A DNA stretch of 64,000 bases from contig MTMA02000006.1 of NCBI GenBank assembly GCA_002011075.2, positions 93,842 to 157,841 on the forward strand, in the 5' to 3' direction. Below the pieces are notes generated by a model that had not been told where the DNA came from, did not search any database, and saw only the letters and a list, made by a program, of their open reading frames with translations. Position numbers and translations under genes: made by a program. Shown one piece after another: positions 1,420 to 6,666 of the stretch (positions within the stretch are counted from its first letter, which is position 1; every line of letters starts with the position of its first letter). The DNA is from Candidatus Scotarchaeum otlingeri (GTDB taxonomy: Archaea > Thermoproteota > Nitrososphaeria > Geothermarchaeales > JDFR-13).

Positions 1420-1899
1420 TTAAGGGAGGTATTTTTCTAAATCGTCAATAGTTATATAATCACTACTTTGAAGAGATTTTCCTTTACTTGTCTCTTGGCT
1501 TAGATGCTTTTTACTACATGCACACCAACATCCATCATCCAGTCCTTCCCGTAATACTGCGAAGTAGCGAGCAGGTTTTCTACAATTGTTATAGAAGCAT
1601 AAGACTTTAGTCGCATATAGTCTAAGAATTCTTGCGCCCCAAGAGATAACATCCATGGCATCTATAGCTTCTTTTCCGTATAACAATATCAATGGGAATA
1701 AGGATAAAAGTGATTGTTCAGAGGGCAGTTTTACAAGCTTAACATTTCTAAAGGCCTCATCTGAGCGGGAAATATACACAAAATACCCCGCTTTTTGCAG
1801 GATACCATTATTACCGAACTTTTCTATAGGTGTTTTTGAAACATATAGATAAACCTTAGAACCGTTAACAAGTAATTCTTGTGTAAACACTTTTCTCAT
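1420..1899 (-). CDS. Uncharacterised Cys-rich protein of the CuA operon
   Basis: A 159-residue protein that I do not recognise. Its second half carries five cysteines: C101 and C106 in CFYNNC, and C124, C126 and C128 in CWCAC, followed by KKH. The arrangement could bind a metal ion such as zinc or copper. No membrane segment or signal peptide is evident. Its start lies four bases after the stop of the upstream CuA cupredoxin gene, so it is almost certainly the last gene of the five-gene copper operon. That position allows a role in copper delivery or CuA assembly, but this is inference from context only. Confidence 0.7.
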   Translation of the reverse strand: MRKVFTQELLVNGSKVYLYVSKTPIEKFGNNGILQKAGYFVYISRSDEAFRNVKLVKLPSEQSLLSLFPLILLYGKEAIDAMDVISWGARILRLYATKVLCFYNNCRKPARYFAVLREGLDDGCWCACSKKHLSQETSKGKSLQSSDYITIDDLEKYLP

Positions 1900-1903
1900 A
1901 TTA

Positions 1904-2320
1904 CTATCCCTCTACAACTATGATTTTTCCGGTCATCTTGTAGTGAAGAGGGCTGCAGTATACGCTACAATAGAACACATATATCCCTGGCTTCTCAAAA
2001 GTAACTTGAATGGATTTTTCGCTTCCAGGTTTAACTACACCACTGTCCACATTGAGTTCAGGGATAATTAAACCGTGTGCCATATCCATACTTCTTATAA
2101 CAAAAGTGACCGTTTCACCTTTCTTTACAATAATCTCATTGGGCATCCAACCGCCATCTTCTTGGGTCCATGCATATACTATAACAGTCCCCTCTTGCTT
2201 TTCCTTCCAAGGACCTATGGGTAGTGTCTTACCATTATATTTTATGTATATTGCGGCTGTAGGTATAAGTATTAAGACTAAAATCACACTCACTGTAAGA
2301 ATAAGTTCCTCTCTATCCAT
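1904..2320 (-). CDS. Membrane-anchored CuA-type cupredoxin
   Basis: A 138-residue protein with one N-terminal membrane anchor (about residues 7-26) and an extracytoplasmic cupredoxin domain (about 45-138). The binuclear CuA ligand set is complete: H82 in MAHGL, then C118-x3-C122-x3-H126-x2-M129. Such domains receive electrons in cytochrome oxidase subunit II and nitrous oxide reductase; the aromatic residue before the second Cys (CSVYC) recalls the nitrous oxide reductase form. The length resembles small ba3-oxidase subunit II. No oxidase subunit I or NosZ is encoded nearby, so the electron acceptor is unknown. It sits six bases after the polyferredoxin gene in the same operon. Confidence 0.9.
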   Translation of the reverse strand: MDREELILTVSVILVLILIPTAAIYIKYNGKTLPIGPWKEKQEGTVIVYAWTQEDGGWMPNEIIVKKGETVTFVIRSMDMAHGLIIPELNVDSGVVKPGSEKSIQVTFEKPGIYVFYCSVYCSPLHYKMTGKIIVVEG

Positions 2321-2326
2321 ATCTCC

Positions 2327-3769
2327 TCACCCCAGGAATAACCAGGCAAATGTCGATGAGGCTATAACGATGAATACCAGCTGCGGAAGAAAACCTCGAA
2401 GCACAACATTTCGATCAAAGTATTGTGCGGCTAATTTATAGCCCGTTTTTATAGAGTAATATAGCCCTATAAGTAAAATGATAAGTTGTTCATATGGTAT
2501 TAAACCTGGAAATATTGGATTCCAAGAGATGTTCTTTGTACCCAGAAGATTCCATCCCCAACCGAAAGGATCAGATATCGTATTAAGTATATATGACCAG
2601 TTAACTTGGATAATTGGAATGCTAAATGCTATCCAGGCCATTAAAGCAAGTGGAACTAATTCATAAGAGAATCCTGTAAATATATCTTTAACTGAATGCT
2701 TAGATTCTGAAAAATATTTCGATATAGCTGCTGTCACATAGAATAAAGCGGGAACAATGGCTAGACTTAGTCCCCAAACGATAGCAAGGTAAAATATATA
2801 GTTATTGAGCCCTGTTAATGCGAAGCCATATGGTGGAGAGTAAAACACATTTGCCCAATCTCTAAGCCATCCCCATGGACCTTGCATAACTGCAACATAA
2901 ACTCCGGCTAAACTTAGCATTATAAACACTTTCCACGCTTCATCCAGACCTTTACCTTTACTCACTAGTAAATCCCTTCCAAAACCACGGGCATTCAACC
3001 TTATATTATCAAATGGACACGCTTTAACGCATTCAAAACATAGTCCACAGTAAGCATTTCTATCCATATTTCCTGGATACTCAAACCATGGACAGCCGTA
3101 ACTTATATCTGACCCTCTAATACATTCCTTGGTTATATGTTTTTTGCATAGCTGTCGGTCCTTAACCCTTAACTCTATCGATGAAAACATCGAGAACAAT
3201 CCTATAAACCCTCCAACGGGGCATACATATCTACAAAAAGCCCTTTTACTATAGAATAGCATTAATACTGTACTTATGATAAATAAGCCCCCAAGAACTA
3301 ACGATGTAACTATGGGTCTTGATACAAGCAGTACACTAAATGACGCCAGAGATAAGAACCCTATATTCTGAAGCCAAATATTCCTGAATCTACCAGGCCA
3401 ATTTAAGTTAAGTCCAAGAGGCTTCTGATAATTAGTCTTTTTTATCATACTTTTTCGTTGAAGCCACTCTCCAAATATCGGTAATGGACATATTGTACAC
3501 CACCCCCTAGCTAGAAATGGAACTAAGATAGCTATTAGAGCAAACCACCATAGCATCCAGACAAACGTAATTGATATATTCATGTTACCTACGGGGCTTC
3601 CTACGAACCCTGCAGTGATTAAGAACCAAAAAACAAATAGATTTGGCACTATAACGGCCCATTGAAATGCTCTATGAATAACAACTCTTTTTACCCATTT
3701 AACTCTAAGAATATCTATGTACTCATTATGTAAAATAAGGCTTTTAACCCACCTATTTAGATTCTTCAT
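2327..3769 (-). CDS. NosR/NapH-like membrane polyferredoxin
   Basis: A 480-residue integral membrane iron-sulfur protein. It has the two membrane-edge motifs of the NapH/NosR/CcoG family, C91-x2-C94-P and C179-x3-C183-P, and a classical 4Fe-4S site C241-x2-C244-x2-C247-x3-C251-P. Further cysteines at 208, 216 and 226 may hold another cluster. Several extra membrane helices follow residue 280, making it longer than typical NapH. Family members carry electrons from the quinol pool to periplasmic reductases or support copper-site assembly. Its start overlaps the stop of the upstream CuA gene by four bases (ATGA), implying coupled translation. I infer that it passes electrons to, or assembles, the neighbouring CuA centres. 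Confidence 0.9.
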   Translation of the reverse strand: MKNLNRWVKSLILHNEYIDILRVKWVKRVVIHRAFQWAVIVPNLFVFWFLITAGFVGSPVGNMNISITFVWMLWWFALIAILVPFLARGWCTICPLPIFGEWLQRKSMIKKTNYQKPLGLNLNWPGRFRNIWLQNIGFLSLASFSVLLVSRPIVTSLVLGGLFIISTVLMLFYSKRAFCRYVCPVGGFIGLFSMFSSIELRVKDRQLCKKHITKECIRGSDISYGCPWFEYPGNMDRNAYCGLCFECVKACPFDNIRLNARGFGRDLLVSKGKGLDEAWKVFIMLSLAGVYVAVMQGPWGWLRDWANVFYSPPYGFALTGLNNYIFYLAIVWGLSLAIVPALFYVTAAISKYFSESKHSVKDIFTGFSYELVPLALMAWIAFSIPIIQVNWSYILNTISDPFGWGWNLLGTKNISWNPIFPGLIPYEQLIILLIGLYYSIKTGYKLAAQYFDRNVVLRGFLPQLVFIVIASSTFAWLFLG

Positions 3770-4236
3770 ATTTCAACACCACCCATAACCTTTATCAATG
3801 TTATGATGCCGAACAACAGTATCAATCCGATAGAGACAATAAATGGTGTATTAACATTGTTCTCCTCAACTAAAAAGTCTCCTACCATAAAAGGATGTAG
3901 GGGTCCACATGTTACTGAGCAGCGTATCTTGAATTTTCCCACCATATCCGCCGTAATGCGTATTGTAACTACTTCTCCAGGTGGTGCTTCAACATTAATG
4001 TTATATCCATCTATGTAGAAACCGTGTGTTACATCTGTAGATCTAAGCTCCAAAATAACCGTATCGCCTTTATTTACTATAATGCGTCCTGGGTTGTATT
4101 TGAATTGGCTAAGTTCTACATAGATGGTTTTTGGATTAGAAGCAACTGCATAATTAGTATAAAAGCTTAGTCCAGAAAAAACCAGTGTTAAAATAAGGAT
4201 ATAAAAAAATATTTTGGATGACTTGGATGAAGACAA
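3766..4236 (-). CDS. CuA-type cupredoxin with C-terminal membrane anchor
   Basis: A 156-residue protein with a signal-peptide-like helix at residues 8-30, a cupredoxin domain at about 37-125, and a C-terminal membrane helix at about 131-150. The CuA ligands are H71 in VTHGF and C106-x3-C110-x3-H114-x2-M117. This topology (cleaved signal plus C-terminal tail anchor) differs from the N-anchored CuA proteins on either side. The three therefore look like parallel or sequential electron carriers rather than recent duplicates. It starts six bases downstream of the first cupredoxin gene. Confidence 0.88.
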   Translation of the reverse strand: MSSSKSSKIFFYILILTLVFSGLSFYTNYAVASNPKTIYVELSQFKYNPGRIIVNKGDTVILELRSTDVTHGFYIDGYNINVEAPPGEVVTIRITADMVGKFKIRCSVTCGPLHPFMVGDFLVEENNVNTPFIVSIGLILLFGIITLIKVMGGVEI

Positions 4237-4242
4237 TCATCT

Positions 4243-4854
4243 TCACCCCCTGACAACAAATCCTCCTTGGATCTCCATCGAACTATGTCCATATCCACAG
4301 TAGACTGTGCATACTATAGTGAAATAACCTGCCTTATCCGCCCTGAAAGTGATTGAATGTGCCTTGAGGACATCTTGTCCCTCGGTCTGTAAAATACCCT
4401 CTATAGACTCAGCTGAACCCTTAAATGCCTGATAATTTGTTTCTATATTTACACCGTATCCATCGATGCCTAAGCCATGATCAAAATATCCTTGGTCCAG
4501 CGCCTCCTCCATCTTTTCATGTAATTCCTCGCTTCCAGGGGGAAGATCGCCCACCCCCCTTTCAAGTGTTCTATGCTCAAATTCTTCGTGAGCCTCTTCA
4601 GCAAATGCAACTCCTGGAAAGAGATAGATAGTAACGGTGTCGCCTTTATTTACCTCTATTTTAGGTATCTCATTGAAATTTTCATCGTAAAATACGAAGC
4701 CCCAGTGATATGCAACTACATAAAACACTCTTTTCTCTCCGGACGATGTGCCTTGTGATATATACCAATAGCCACCGATAGCTAGAGCTATTGCTATAAC
4801 GATCAACAACACTGCTAAAGCCATTTTTCCCGTTAGTGAAGCTCCTTTTTTCAT
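4243..4854 (-). CDS. CuA-type cupredoxin with His/Glu-rich insert
   Basis: First gene of the copper operon, 203 residues from the chosen ATG. An in-frame ATG 23 codons upstream would add a hydrophobic stretch that overlaps the TATA-like region and is unlikely. One N-terminal membrane anchor (residues 11-31) precedes a cupredoxin fold with CuA ligands H126 (FDHGL) and C182-x3-C186-x3-H190-x2-M193. Between the first strands lies an insert at about 85-125 very rich in Glu and His (H89, H94, H112), absent from the other two cupredoxins of the operon. It may be a copper-loading or docking loop; that is speculation. Confidence 0.88.
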   Translation of the reverse strand: MKKGASLTGKMALAVLLIVIAIALAIGGYWYISQGTSSGEKRVFYVVAYHWGFVFYDENFNEIPKIEVNKGDTVTIYLFPGVAFAEEAHEEFEHRTLERGVGDLPPGSEELHEKMEEALDQGYFDHGLGIDGYGVNIETNYQAFKGSAESIEGILQTEGQDVLKAHSITFRADKAGYFTIVCTVYCGYGHSSMEIQGGFVVRG

Positions 4855-4903: not shown

Positions 4904-4920
4904 TTGTGTATTATACACAA
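4904..4920. promoter_or_regulatory. Perfect palindrome, candidate operator
   Basis: TTGTGTAT, one central T, then ATACACAA: a perfect 8-base inverted repeat. It stands in the intergenic space between the divergent CuA operon and the winged-helix/RDD gene, about 14 bases upstream of the operon's TATA-like box. The symmetry and place suit a dimeric winged-helix regulator, and the adjacent divergent gene encodes a candidate for that role. Confidence 0.55.
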
Positions 4921-5002
4921 CAAAAGTTGAGTAGTCTGTTAAAACACTTCCAAGATATATTTCCCGTAATTATAAGGAGAATCTATAATATACTCATTGG
5001 GA

Positions 5003-5779
5003 ATGAAAAAGAGCAAGTTAGAGGCACTCTGTTTCGATGTGCTAAGTCACGAAATAAGAAGAGAAATAATCAACCTACTATATCAAAGGATAGAAATGAG
5101 CTATACCGAGTTACTTAAAACCTTAAATATAGGAGACGGATTACTAAACTTTCATCTAAAAAAGATGAAAGACTTTATTACAAAAACAGAGAAAGGGACC
5201 TACATTTTAACTGAAAAGGGCCGATTAGCATATAATTTGATACGCACCGTTAGGTCTTATTACCATATTACTTCTCTACTAACTCCAACTACATTACTGG
5301 ATAAAGGCATAGTTTTCAGGCGAATAATCGCCTTTCTGGTAGATGCGGTAATTTTCTTTATCTTTACAGGTATATTTTTAGATCCTCAGCTATGGGATAT
5401 GATATTTGAAGCTATAAATCACCTAAACACTATTATAGAGTTACATCCTTGGATATTTCATCTAGAACATCTAACACTTGTCGGTGAACTCACCTTCCGA
5501 TTAGTAGGAATATACTCACATGTCTTCTTCGCCGTATATATCTTCTTAACATTACTAGAGGCGTATAAAGGTCAGACGCCGGGCAAATATCTACTTCGAA
5601 TTCGAGTAGTCAAAATAGGGGGTTTACGGCTTGGACTGATAGAGTCGGCAATAAGAAATGCGGGAAAGGTCTTTTTATTACCTTTAGATCTAATTGTAGG
5701 GTTACTGCTATTCAGTAAAAGGGGATTTATAAGATTTTTTGACTATTATACAGATACCGTAGTTGAGAGGGTCATATAG
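5003..5779 (+). CDS. Winged-helix regulator fused to RDD membrane domain
   Basis: About 258 residues from the ATG; a TTG two codons earlier is also possible. The first 75 residues form an ArsR-like winged helix-turn-helix. The rest is an RDD-family membrane domain with an FRRIIAFLVDAV segment, three to four membrane helices and the typical GQTPGKYLLRIRVV loop. Membrane-tethered winged-helix proteins of this layout occur in archaea, but I know of no defined function. It is divergent from the CuA operon across a palindrome, so I infer control of that operon, possibly sensing membrane or redox state. Confidence 0.8.
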   Translation: MKKSKLEALCFDVLSHEIRREIINLLYQRIEMSYTELLKTLNIGDGLLNFHLKKMKDFITKTEKGTYILTEKGRLAYNLIRTVRSYYHITSLLTPTTLLDKGIVFRRIIAFLVDAVIFFIFTGIFLDPQLWDMIFEAINHLNTIIELHPWIFHLEHLTLVGELTFRLVGIYSHVFFAVYIFLTLLEAYKGQTPGKYLLRIRVVKIGGLRLGLIESAIRNAGKVFLLPLDLIVGLLLFSKRGFIRFFDYYTDTVVERVI

Positions 5780-5792
5780 ATCCTTATATCAG

Positions 5793-6344
5793 CTACAAAT
5801 ACTTGTTTGCCAAGTATTCTACTAATTTGTGCATCTCTTCATGTACCCCTGGGCCTACTATTTTTTCTTCAACATCATTAAATCTTTTCAAAAGATCCTT
5901 CATCTTTTCTTCTGTTAATAAGTTGTCAGCCATAGGATAGAGAATATTATCCTCTTTATAGATGTGTTGCTCCAGCAACTGAATATACCCCTCGGCATTA
6001 TCTATGAAATCAGATACGGCCCTACCACTCTCATCCAAATTTTCTATCGCTTCCTTCATATTCCTTACATATTTCCTTCCTACTTCATGCTCTGTCAACA
6101 TAACCCCTATGGGACCAGATTCCTTGGGCACACCTGCCTCCTCCATAGCAGGAAATAGCAAGTCCTCTTCCTTTCCGTGATGGCATTTGTCTGCAAATGT
6201 TCTGATAAAGTTTATTACCTTGCTAAGGTCTTCACGAGGAACTTTCTCTCCTTCTCTGAGTCTATGGCATATATTTTCGATAACCTTTAGCATCTTTTTG
6301 ATGACCCTATGCTCATCCATTAATATACTGGTTGGTCTGCTCAT
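5793..6344 (-). CDS. Hemerythrin HHE-domain protein
   Basis: A cytoplasmic all-helical protein of 183 residues from MSRPTS; an ATG four codons upstream is also open. It carries the hemerythrin metal signature: DEH near the N-terminus, CHHGKEEDLLFP in helix 2, a central EHE, and QHIYKEDNILYP in helix 4. This ligand pattern fits a di-iron centre. HHE proteins bind oxygen or nitric oxide or act in iron homeostasis and nitrosative stress defence. Being next to a copper/iron-sulfur respiratory operon, a role in NO or O2 handling is plausible but not shown. It converges on the winged-helix/RDD gene. Confidence 0.9.
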   Translation of the reverse strand: MSRPTSILMDEHRVIKKMLKVIENICHRLREGEKVPREDLSKVINFIRTFADKCHHGKEEDLLFPAMEEAGVPKESGPIGVMLTEHEVGRKYVRNMKEAIENLDESGRAVSDFIDNAEGYIQLLEQHIYKEDNILYPMADNLLTEEKMKDLLKRFNDVEEKIVGPGVHEEMHKLVEYLANKYL

Positions 6345-6666
6345 GATAAACTCCAATTAACATAATTAATGTTCCTAAATAGATTTTGATATTAATAAAT
6401 GGGCTACCCGTATATTCAGCTGCTTATATCATAATCTCAATAAATATTGGGTGTCTATAAGAGTTACCAAATAACCAGATATTAAGCCATTATTATGATG
6501 ATAAAGGAAACTATCCAAAAAATGTGAGGAATGAACGGTAAAGACTATTCCAATACCCTTATTACAGGTTAGAATATGAAATCACCTTACTTATCTAAAA
6601 ATCTGAAGGAGAGAAATTAACATTATTTACATTTGATCACGAAAGAGAATATAGCTTAAATAGTAA
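6345..6666. other. Intergenic stretch without a visible gene
   Basis: About 320 AT-rich bases between the hemerythrin gene and the end of hyuB. Only very short open frames are present, for example a 13-codon frame from an ATG near 6530. I see no RNA fold, repeat or promoter that I would defend. Confidence 0.5.

Follow-up and report, generated by a model that had tools for sequence, protein, structure and literature searches.

In this study we describe an operon of the heat-loving archaeon Candidatus Scotarchaeum otlingeri in which a NapH-like iron-sulfur (Fe-S) membrane protein stands together with three separate small cupredoxins, each of which keeps the complete ligand set of a CuA copper site. 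The operon lies in the window, by which we mean the whole stretch of 64,000 nucleotides that was analysed (G000:C6:93842-157841, on contig MTMA02000006.1; G and L numbers denote genomes and loci). The genome, G000, is 1.69 Mb long and 88% complete, absences in it have to be read against this completeness, and it shares its family with Candidatus Geothermarchaeum rappei JdFR-14 (G003). We propose that the operon encodes a membrane relay that leads electrons through Fe-S to CuA and on to a nitrogen-oxide acceptor in this archaeon, a reading to which we give a probability of about 0.58. To our knowledge, CuA is known from very few contexts outside oxidases and NosZ. The wider claim, for which we see the odds as even, is that units of this kind might be a third natural home of CuA: a widespread modular quinol dehydrogenase, made of a heme-free NapH-like protein and dedicated CuA proteins, that is plugged into unrelated acceptors such as nitrous oxide (N2O) reductase, nitrate-reductase-type enzymes and multiheme or outer-membrane chains. 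The window archaeon would then respire N2O, and perhaps nitric oxide (NO), with copper carriers instead of cytochrome c. What follows is read from the sequences where it concerns the genes of the set, their ligands and fold class, topology and conservation, or fusions, neighbourhoods and the genome inventory.

The copper and iron-sulfur proteins of the operon

Five open reading frames (ORFs) occupy positions 1420-4854 of the window on the minus strand, in the 5' to 3' order CupA, CupB, FeS, CupC and Cys-rich:

4243..4854, minus strand: CupA, 203 amino acids (aa), a CuA cupredoxin that is anchored in the membrane and has a long acidic insertion; the operon's first gene
3766..4236, minus strand: CupB, 156 aa, a CuA cupredoxin with an N-terminal signal/anchor and a C-terminal helix
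2327..3769, minus strand: FeS membrane protein, 480 aa, a NapH-like core with a five-helix C-terminal extension and 11 conserved Cys
1904..2320, minus strand: CupC, 138 aa, a CuA cupredoxin with a single N-terminal membrane anchor
1420..1899, minus strand: Cys-rich protein, 159 aa, small and soluble; the conserved last gene of the window's operon sub-type

An earlier interpretation made from the letters of this DNA (hereafter the sequence-only reading) had grouped three CuA proteins, an Fe-S membrane protein and a Cys-rich protein into one cluster with gaps of 4-6 bases or overlaps. This holds: all five ORFs are present on the same strand, and the gaps along the operon measure 6, -4, 6 and 4 bases, the overlap of 4 being that between FeS and CupB. 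Such spacing suggests a single transcript for the five genes.

The sequence-only reading had also claimed a complete CuA ligand set for all three small proteins, and we indeed found C-x3-C-x3-H-x2-M with an upstream His in each of them (CTVYCGYGHSSM in CupA, CSVTCGPLHPFM and CSVYCSPLHYKM in CupB and CupC). CupB and CupC exceed the Pfam COX2 cut-off and match solved CuA domains with E values of 7.5e-21 and 6.5e-12, respectively, the ba3 CuA structures (2cua/1ehk) being among the matches. The similarity of CupA is confined to the region of the motif (4e-6 against the CoxB model, merely 0.15 against solved structures), because its long acidic insertion separates the strands; its ligands are invariant in 5 homologs. 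Judged by the sequences, conservation of the CuA motif is not a matter of chance, and CupA, CupB and CupC presumably bind copper as a CuA site. Their topologies differ, as had been noticed before, with one N-terminal helix in CupA and CupC against the signal/anchor plus C-terminal helix of CupB.

In a tree of CuA domains, the deep branches of which are unsure because the domain is short (about 130 columns), CoxB sequences form one clade (14 rows, support 99) and NosZ sequences another (6 rows, 100), and all three Cups stand outside both. CupA forms a group of its own (5 rows), upstream and fused CuA domains are intermingled, and downstream CuA domains are mostly apart. Against the curated CoxB model TIGR02866 (NCBIfam), which has a cut-off of 147.7 bits, the three Cups score 47.8, 44.7 and 26.5. 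With its CuA domains outside the CoxB and NosZ clades, the CuA-FeS-CuA unit is, on this evidence, not CoxB.

The FeS protein matches the Fer4_5 and NapH/MauN models and has 9 helices, in agreement with its earlier description as a NosR/NapH-like iron-sulfur membrane protein. Each of the 11 Cys in the window protein is kept in 87-88 of 88 sequences; the Cys motifs include CxxCP, CxxxCP and one CxxCxxCxxxCP, and C208, C216 and C226 may belong to a second 4Fe-4S cluster. No conserved membrane His was found in these 88 sequences, and therefore heme b is not expected in the protein. An AlphaFold2 model of the window protein reached a predicted local distance difference test score (pLDDT) of 92.6 and a predicted template modelling score (pTM) of 0.90; a fold search of the PDB with this model gave no match (best E 0.67), and a sequence search of solved structures gave none of weight. 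From positive-inside charge counts, the N-terminus, the CxxCP loop and the Cys-rich domain of FeS are predicted to lie on the cytoplasmic side, and the CuA domains were taken as outside the membrane. In the FeS tree the window copy groups with L086, L087 and a second copy of its own genome (99), apart from the G. rappei/Geoarchaeota clade.

How might these proteins work together? The heme-free 9-helix NapH-like FeS protein would take electrons on the cytoplasmic or membrane side, most likely from menaquinol, and pass them to the tightly associated exoplasmic CupB. CupC and CupA, both membrane-anchored, would carry them on to acceptors outside the membrane. In G000 the most likely acceptor would be a CuA-containing N2O reductase encoded elsewhere in the genome, and a second possible one a CuA-less enzyme of the heme-copper oxidase (HCO) kind that is of NO-reductase type. 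The unit would stand in for NosR, NarI or NapGH, CuA replacing flavin mononucleotide (FMN), heme b or NapG, and would be a relay set in a cell in which cytochrome c maturation was not detected. In this scheme the quinol donor, the direction of flow, the order of the CuA carriers, the acceptor and the binding of copper as CuA are what we infer.

Relatives, fusions and gene neighbourhoods

A scan of public genomes for the FeS protein gave 139 confirmed relatives, of which 80 were kept. Archaeal relatives come from Geothermarchaeota, Nitrososphaeria, Geoarchaeota, Methanoperedens and Archaeoglobus, bacterial ones from Acidobacteriota, Planctomycetota, Chloroflexota, Rokubacteria, Desulfobacterota, other delta-proteobacterial bins and Bacteroidota, and the unit recurs across about ten phyla. 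In archaea, Chloroflexota, Planctomycetota and Acidobacteriota the FeS protein is as a rule flanked by two CuA proteins, of which the downstream one has heme c motifs in units of the three bacterial phyla. Fusions of a CuA domain to the N-terminus of the FeS protein occur in Desulfobacterota, in part of the Acidobacteriota, in Archaeoglobus and in G363. The fused proteins keep the CupB-FeS gene order, with CupB corresponding to the fused domain, and this is strong evidence that CupB functions directly with the Fe-S protein. The model of the fused protein L114:9440-11365 (pLDDT 86) is a single chain with an N-terminal CuA domain, and it matches the ba3 and NosZ CuA domains.

Two variants of the protein may be mentioned here. 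In the Bacteroidota fusions (L136-L163, L165) both Cys and His are kept and the CuA Met is replaced by Glu (CHVWCGPMHAFE in those read); the fused FeS-CuA gene almost always has a gene for a membrane-anchored FG-GAP repeat protein next to it, and in many cases one for a TPR protein, and the group includes the cultivated Prolixibacter bellariivorans. G162 and G245 (L246:7847-9763, L247:1392-3311) have a variant Fe-S protein with an N-terminal domain that lacks the CuA motif, near DsbD-like genes, and one of these gene copies is broken by TGA.

A trio of this kind has been known since 2015, when Arshad et al. (PMC4683180) listed 'HCO II - NapH (9 helices) - HCO II' in the nar operon of Candidatus Methanoperedens (MPEBLZ_02039-02041), described two HCO-II-like proteins along with a NapH-like protein that has five additional helices, and proposed that they form a membrane complex. 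The two systems have in common a homologous FeS protein (about 42-44% identity), the order CuA-FeS-CuA and both flanking CuA proteins. However, the Methanoperedens trio is linked to NarGHJ-Orf7, whereas the window operon is without Nar genes, adds a divergent third CuA protein (CupA), the Cys-rich protein and a divergent HTH-RDD regulator, and belongs to a genome that has nosZ and the NO-reductase-type HCO instead. The breadth of the unit, its link to NosZ and the third CuA carrier appear new. In the literature searched, most subscription journals being outside our reach, we found nothing on how widely the unit is spread, on its linkage to nosZ, on fused forms or on CupA, and no biochemistry on the unit.

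The genes around the unit point to several kinds of partners. In G. rappei the genes nosZ-nosL-P181-nosD-nosF-nosY adjoin the unit and run divergently from it; next comes the NO-reductase-type HCO, and the HTH_10 regulator of the latter is likewise near module and nosZ. CupA homologs also occur where the Fe-S gene does not, and the one in G009 is the immediate divergent neighbour of nosZ. The earlier suggestion of a separate electron-transfer chain via Fe-S to CuA that is linked to N2O or NO is supported. In Methanoperedens and three Planctomycetota loci the unit follows NarG/NarH/NarJ/Orf7-like genes, and no NarI was seen at these NarGHJ-linked units. A Geothermarchaeota fragment has the unit divergent from a NarG-like gene, and the NarG-like proteins beside units fall in the type II dimethyl sulfoxide (DMSO) reductase group. 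Multiheme cytochromes neighbour many bacterial units. At L153:4490-8370 an acidobacterial CuA-FeS-CuA unit has as neighbours a cytochrome c and an outer-membrane porin of MtrB/PioB type, which suggests a use in extracellular electron transfer. Among 398 genomes of the phylum, 14 have the Fe-S family, 9 have nosZ and 3 have both (0.3 expected; Fisher p 0.003), a co-occurrence that we weigh lightly because two of the three genomes share a genus and carry a divergent variant.

Possible electron acceptors and rival explanations

According to the sequence-only reading there was neither an oxidase nor NosZ. For the 64-kb window this stands, for the genome it does not: nosZ lies about 0.42 Mb and an NO-reductase-type HCO about 1.16 Mb from the operon, both on the same contig. 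The nosZ gene (C6:518730-520805) scores 736.3 bits against TIGR04246 (cut-off 625), encodes CuA at the C-terminus and has NosD/NosF/NosY-like genes downstream; no nosL was seen within this nos cluster (L018:7011-12806). Its NosZ is 70-75% identical to that of several other families of the phylum and 60-63% to that of its own family; together with the missing nosL this might reflect horizontal transfer. Type III CRISPR-looking genes (Cas10/Cmr-like), recognised by eye, lie nearby at L018:173-6104.

The sole COX1-type gene of G000 (C6:1255563-1257089) has its own subunit II alongside. Where oxygen reductases have HPEVY it reads WWGLDLIADGN, and therefore it has Asp at the position of the CuB His and lacks the Tyr; the HH and HxH motifs of the heme ligands are kept. 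A change from His to Asp at this CuB site has been noted for some NO reductase types (PMC3475470), and the Asp, the missing Tyr and the kept heme ligands together suggest that the HCO is of NO-reductase type (gNOR-like). In all members of the family that were examined, its subunit II has both CuA Cys changed to Ser and the first His to Tyr. Behind the HCO and this CuA-less subunit II (L002:8561-10731, about G000:C6:1255560-1257730) follows an HTH_10 regulator. The genome holds a second unit, in the order CuA-FeS-CuA-Cys-rich, at about C6:710777-713610, and no NosR or other NapH/NosR-type protein elsewhere. An oxygen-reductase-type oxidase was not found in G000, families of cytochrome c maturation or assembly were not detected, NarG gave only weak molybdopterin matches and NirK nothing above cut-off. 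An operon with Rieske, cytochrome b and rusticyanin-like blue copper genes lies 6-9 kb left of the window (L003:5328-7976).

Several of our observations weigh against a relay that ends at a nitrogen-oxide reductase. The module is not next to nosZ in the window genome. G002, G006, G009 and G010 have nosZ and no FeS homolog, so that NosZ does not strictly require the module. It is likewise missing from most nosZ clusters of Thermoproteota, some of which have a blue copper protein instead; on these grounds we rejected an obligate pairing of module and nosZ. Conversely, G001 (74% complete) has a module of the window type, and nosZ was not found in it. The acceptor is the weakest link of the proposal, because nosZ is not adjacent here and relatives have nosZ without the module. 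The operon with Rieske, cytochrome b and blue copper genes might likewise lead electrons to NosZ or to the HCO. A further difficulty is the path across the membrane, which is left unexplained with clusters that are predicted to be cytoplasmic and CuA that is outside; it is our inference that the same question holds for NapH and NosR generally.

It is possible, though unlikely, that the CuA proteins mainly serve the NO-reductase-type HCO and that the module is a detached donor complex for this enzyme, not for NosZ. This would agree with the lack of CuA ligands in its subunit II and with the gene order in G. rappei, and all 3 family genomes with the module also have such an HCO. Two of the CupA homologs that exist without an Fe-S gene, those of G002 and G006, are at a distance of about 4 kb from the HCO. 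However, unrelated genes sit within the distance between CupA and the HCO, and the HCO is present without the FeS module in G002, G006, G008, G009 and G010. A CuA-less subunit II is also typical of quinol-oxidising enzymes, and therefore the HCO may need no external donor. We consider it improbable that electrons flow the other way or to extracellular partners, that is, from outside donors over CuA to the quinone pool, as has been proposed for fox-like iron-oxidation clusters. The fox clusters of Sulfolobales are reported to contain an Fe-S protein (PMC5461723), and distant FeS homologs stand near HCO and CuA-type genes in Sulfolobaceae-like genomes, but their similarity is low (E about 1e-48, partial-length alignment), these loci are likened to fox by gene context, and fox hosts are aerobic Fe(II) oxidisers. 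The Acidobacteria unit beside MtrB/PioB and the multiheme cytochromes near many bacterial units would fit partners outside the cell; yet the nearest archaeal relatives adjoin terminal reductases (nosZ, NarG) and not donor-oxidation genes, and the window genome has neither a second HCO nor detected cytochrome c maturation.

The sequence-only reading had also considered copper-site assembly, in which the three proteins would supply copper for the CuA sites in NosZ or in an oxidase. The occurrence of small, anchored cupredoxins close to copper enzymes, the DsbD-like neighbours of the G162 and G245 variants and copper-transport-ATPase-like homologs near some Chloroflexi units could be taken in its favour. 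We nevertheless regard it as very unlikely, because homologous units adjoin NarGH or multiheme cytochromes, where there is no CuA target to build, and because heme c domains are fused to downstream CuA proteins in Chloroflexota, Planctomycetota and Acidobacteriota. Moreover, the full ligand set is found in every protein, and delivery of copper needs no 11-Cys Fe-S protein. That the three proteins are plain CoxB subunits of an ordinary oxidase encoded elsewhere in the genome is hardly credible. Their CuA domains do match CoxB models and ba3 CuA structures, but all three are far below the curated CoxB cut-off and outside the 14-row clade, and the one COX1-type gene, which is without HPEVY, has a subunit II of its own. 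Scores, CuA tree and genome inventory thus already largely refute this explanation, which we rejected; the case that the sequence-only reading had named against itself, CoxB parts for an oxidase that lacks subunit II, fails with it.

Known systems and minor elements of the locus

With quinol dehydrogenase subunits of the NapH/MauN family the FeS protein has in common the four-helix core, the CxxCP and CxxxCP motifs and a ferredoxin-type Cys cluster. It differs from them by five more helices and by CuA proteins as apparent partners, it scores 35.1 bits where the cut-off is 213, and the operon has no NapG gene. With NosR it shares a NapH-like polytopic Fe-S part and a presumed role in feeding NosZ, but no FMN-binding domain was found in the FeS protein and the match is weak (12.4 vs 1000 bits). 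The full CuA ligand set and the cupredoxin fold are common to the Cups, ba3 subunit II (2cua/1ehk) and the CuA domains of NosZ, whereas the Cups are separate proteins outside both clades that have an Fe-S protein as operon partner and no catalytic subunit. For anaerobic methanotrophic archaea (ANME), NapH homologs have been discussed by Chadwick et al. (PMC9012536) as possible quinol or methanophenazine oxidisers.

How the quinone pool supplies electrons to archaeal and clade II NosZ, and to outward-facing NarGH without NarI, is poorly known. The operon and its relatives offer one conserved and testable answer, a CuA-based substitute for NosR, NarI or NapGH, and for spectroscopy there are compact targets in CupA and in the fusions of FeS with CuA. 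N2O is a greenhouse gas, and its consumption by thermophilic archaea bears on what is inferred about the nitrogen cycle from genomes; possibly the module could serve to mark genomes that are able to deliver the electrons.

The Cys-rich protein has the motifs C-x4-C-R-x-P-A and, later, C-x3-H (zinc-site-like), and gave no family match in a Pfam search. It has 4 homologs, one of which ends before the second motif. Proteins with C-x4-C / C-x3-H close the operons of the window's sub-type, with copies at window 1420-1899, L019:11105-11611 and L087:10688-11155. Three further elements lie beside CupA:

4904..4920, no strand assigned: perfect inverted repeat TTGTGTATTATACACAA, 17 bases, between CupA and the divergent regulator; candidate operator
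4997..5779, plus strand: HTH-RDD regulator candidate, an ArsR-like winged helix with an RDD membrane domain
5793..6356, minus strand: hemerythrin-domain protein, weakly RIC/YtfE-like and below cut-off; a neighbour gene whose membership of the system is unproven

The position of the HTH-RDD gene, next to the module and divergent from it, is conserved in L086, and in L087 the gene lies near the module. The inverted repeat has no other match in the window at up to 3 mismatches (0.37 expected by chance), and it was not found near nosZ, the second module or the HCO of the genome. A form with two mismatches stands at the equivalent place in L086 (L086:1413-1429), and we take the repeat for a putative operator of the HTH-RDD protein.

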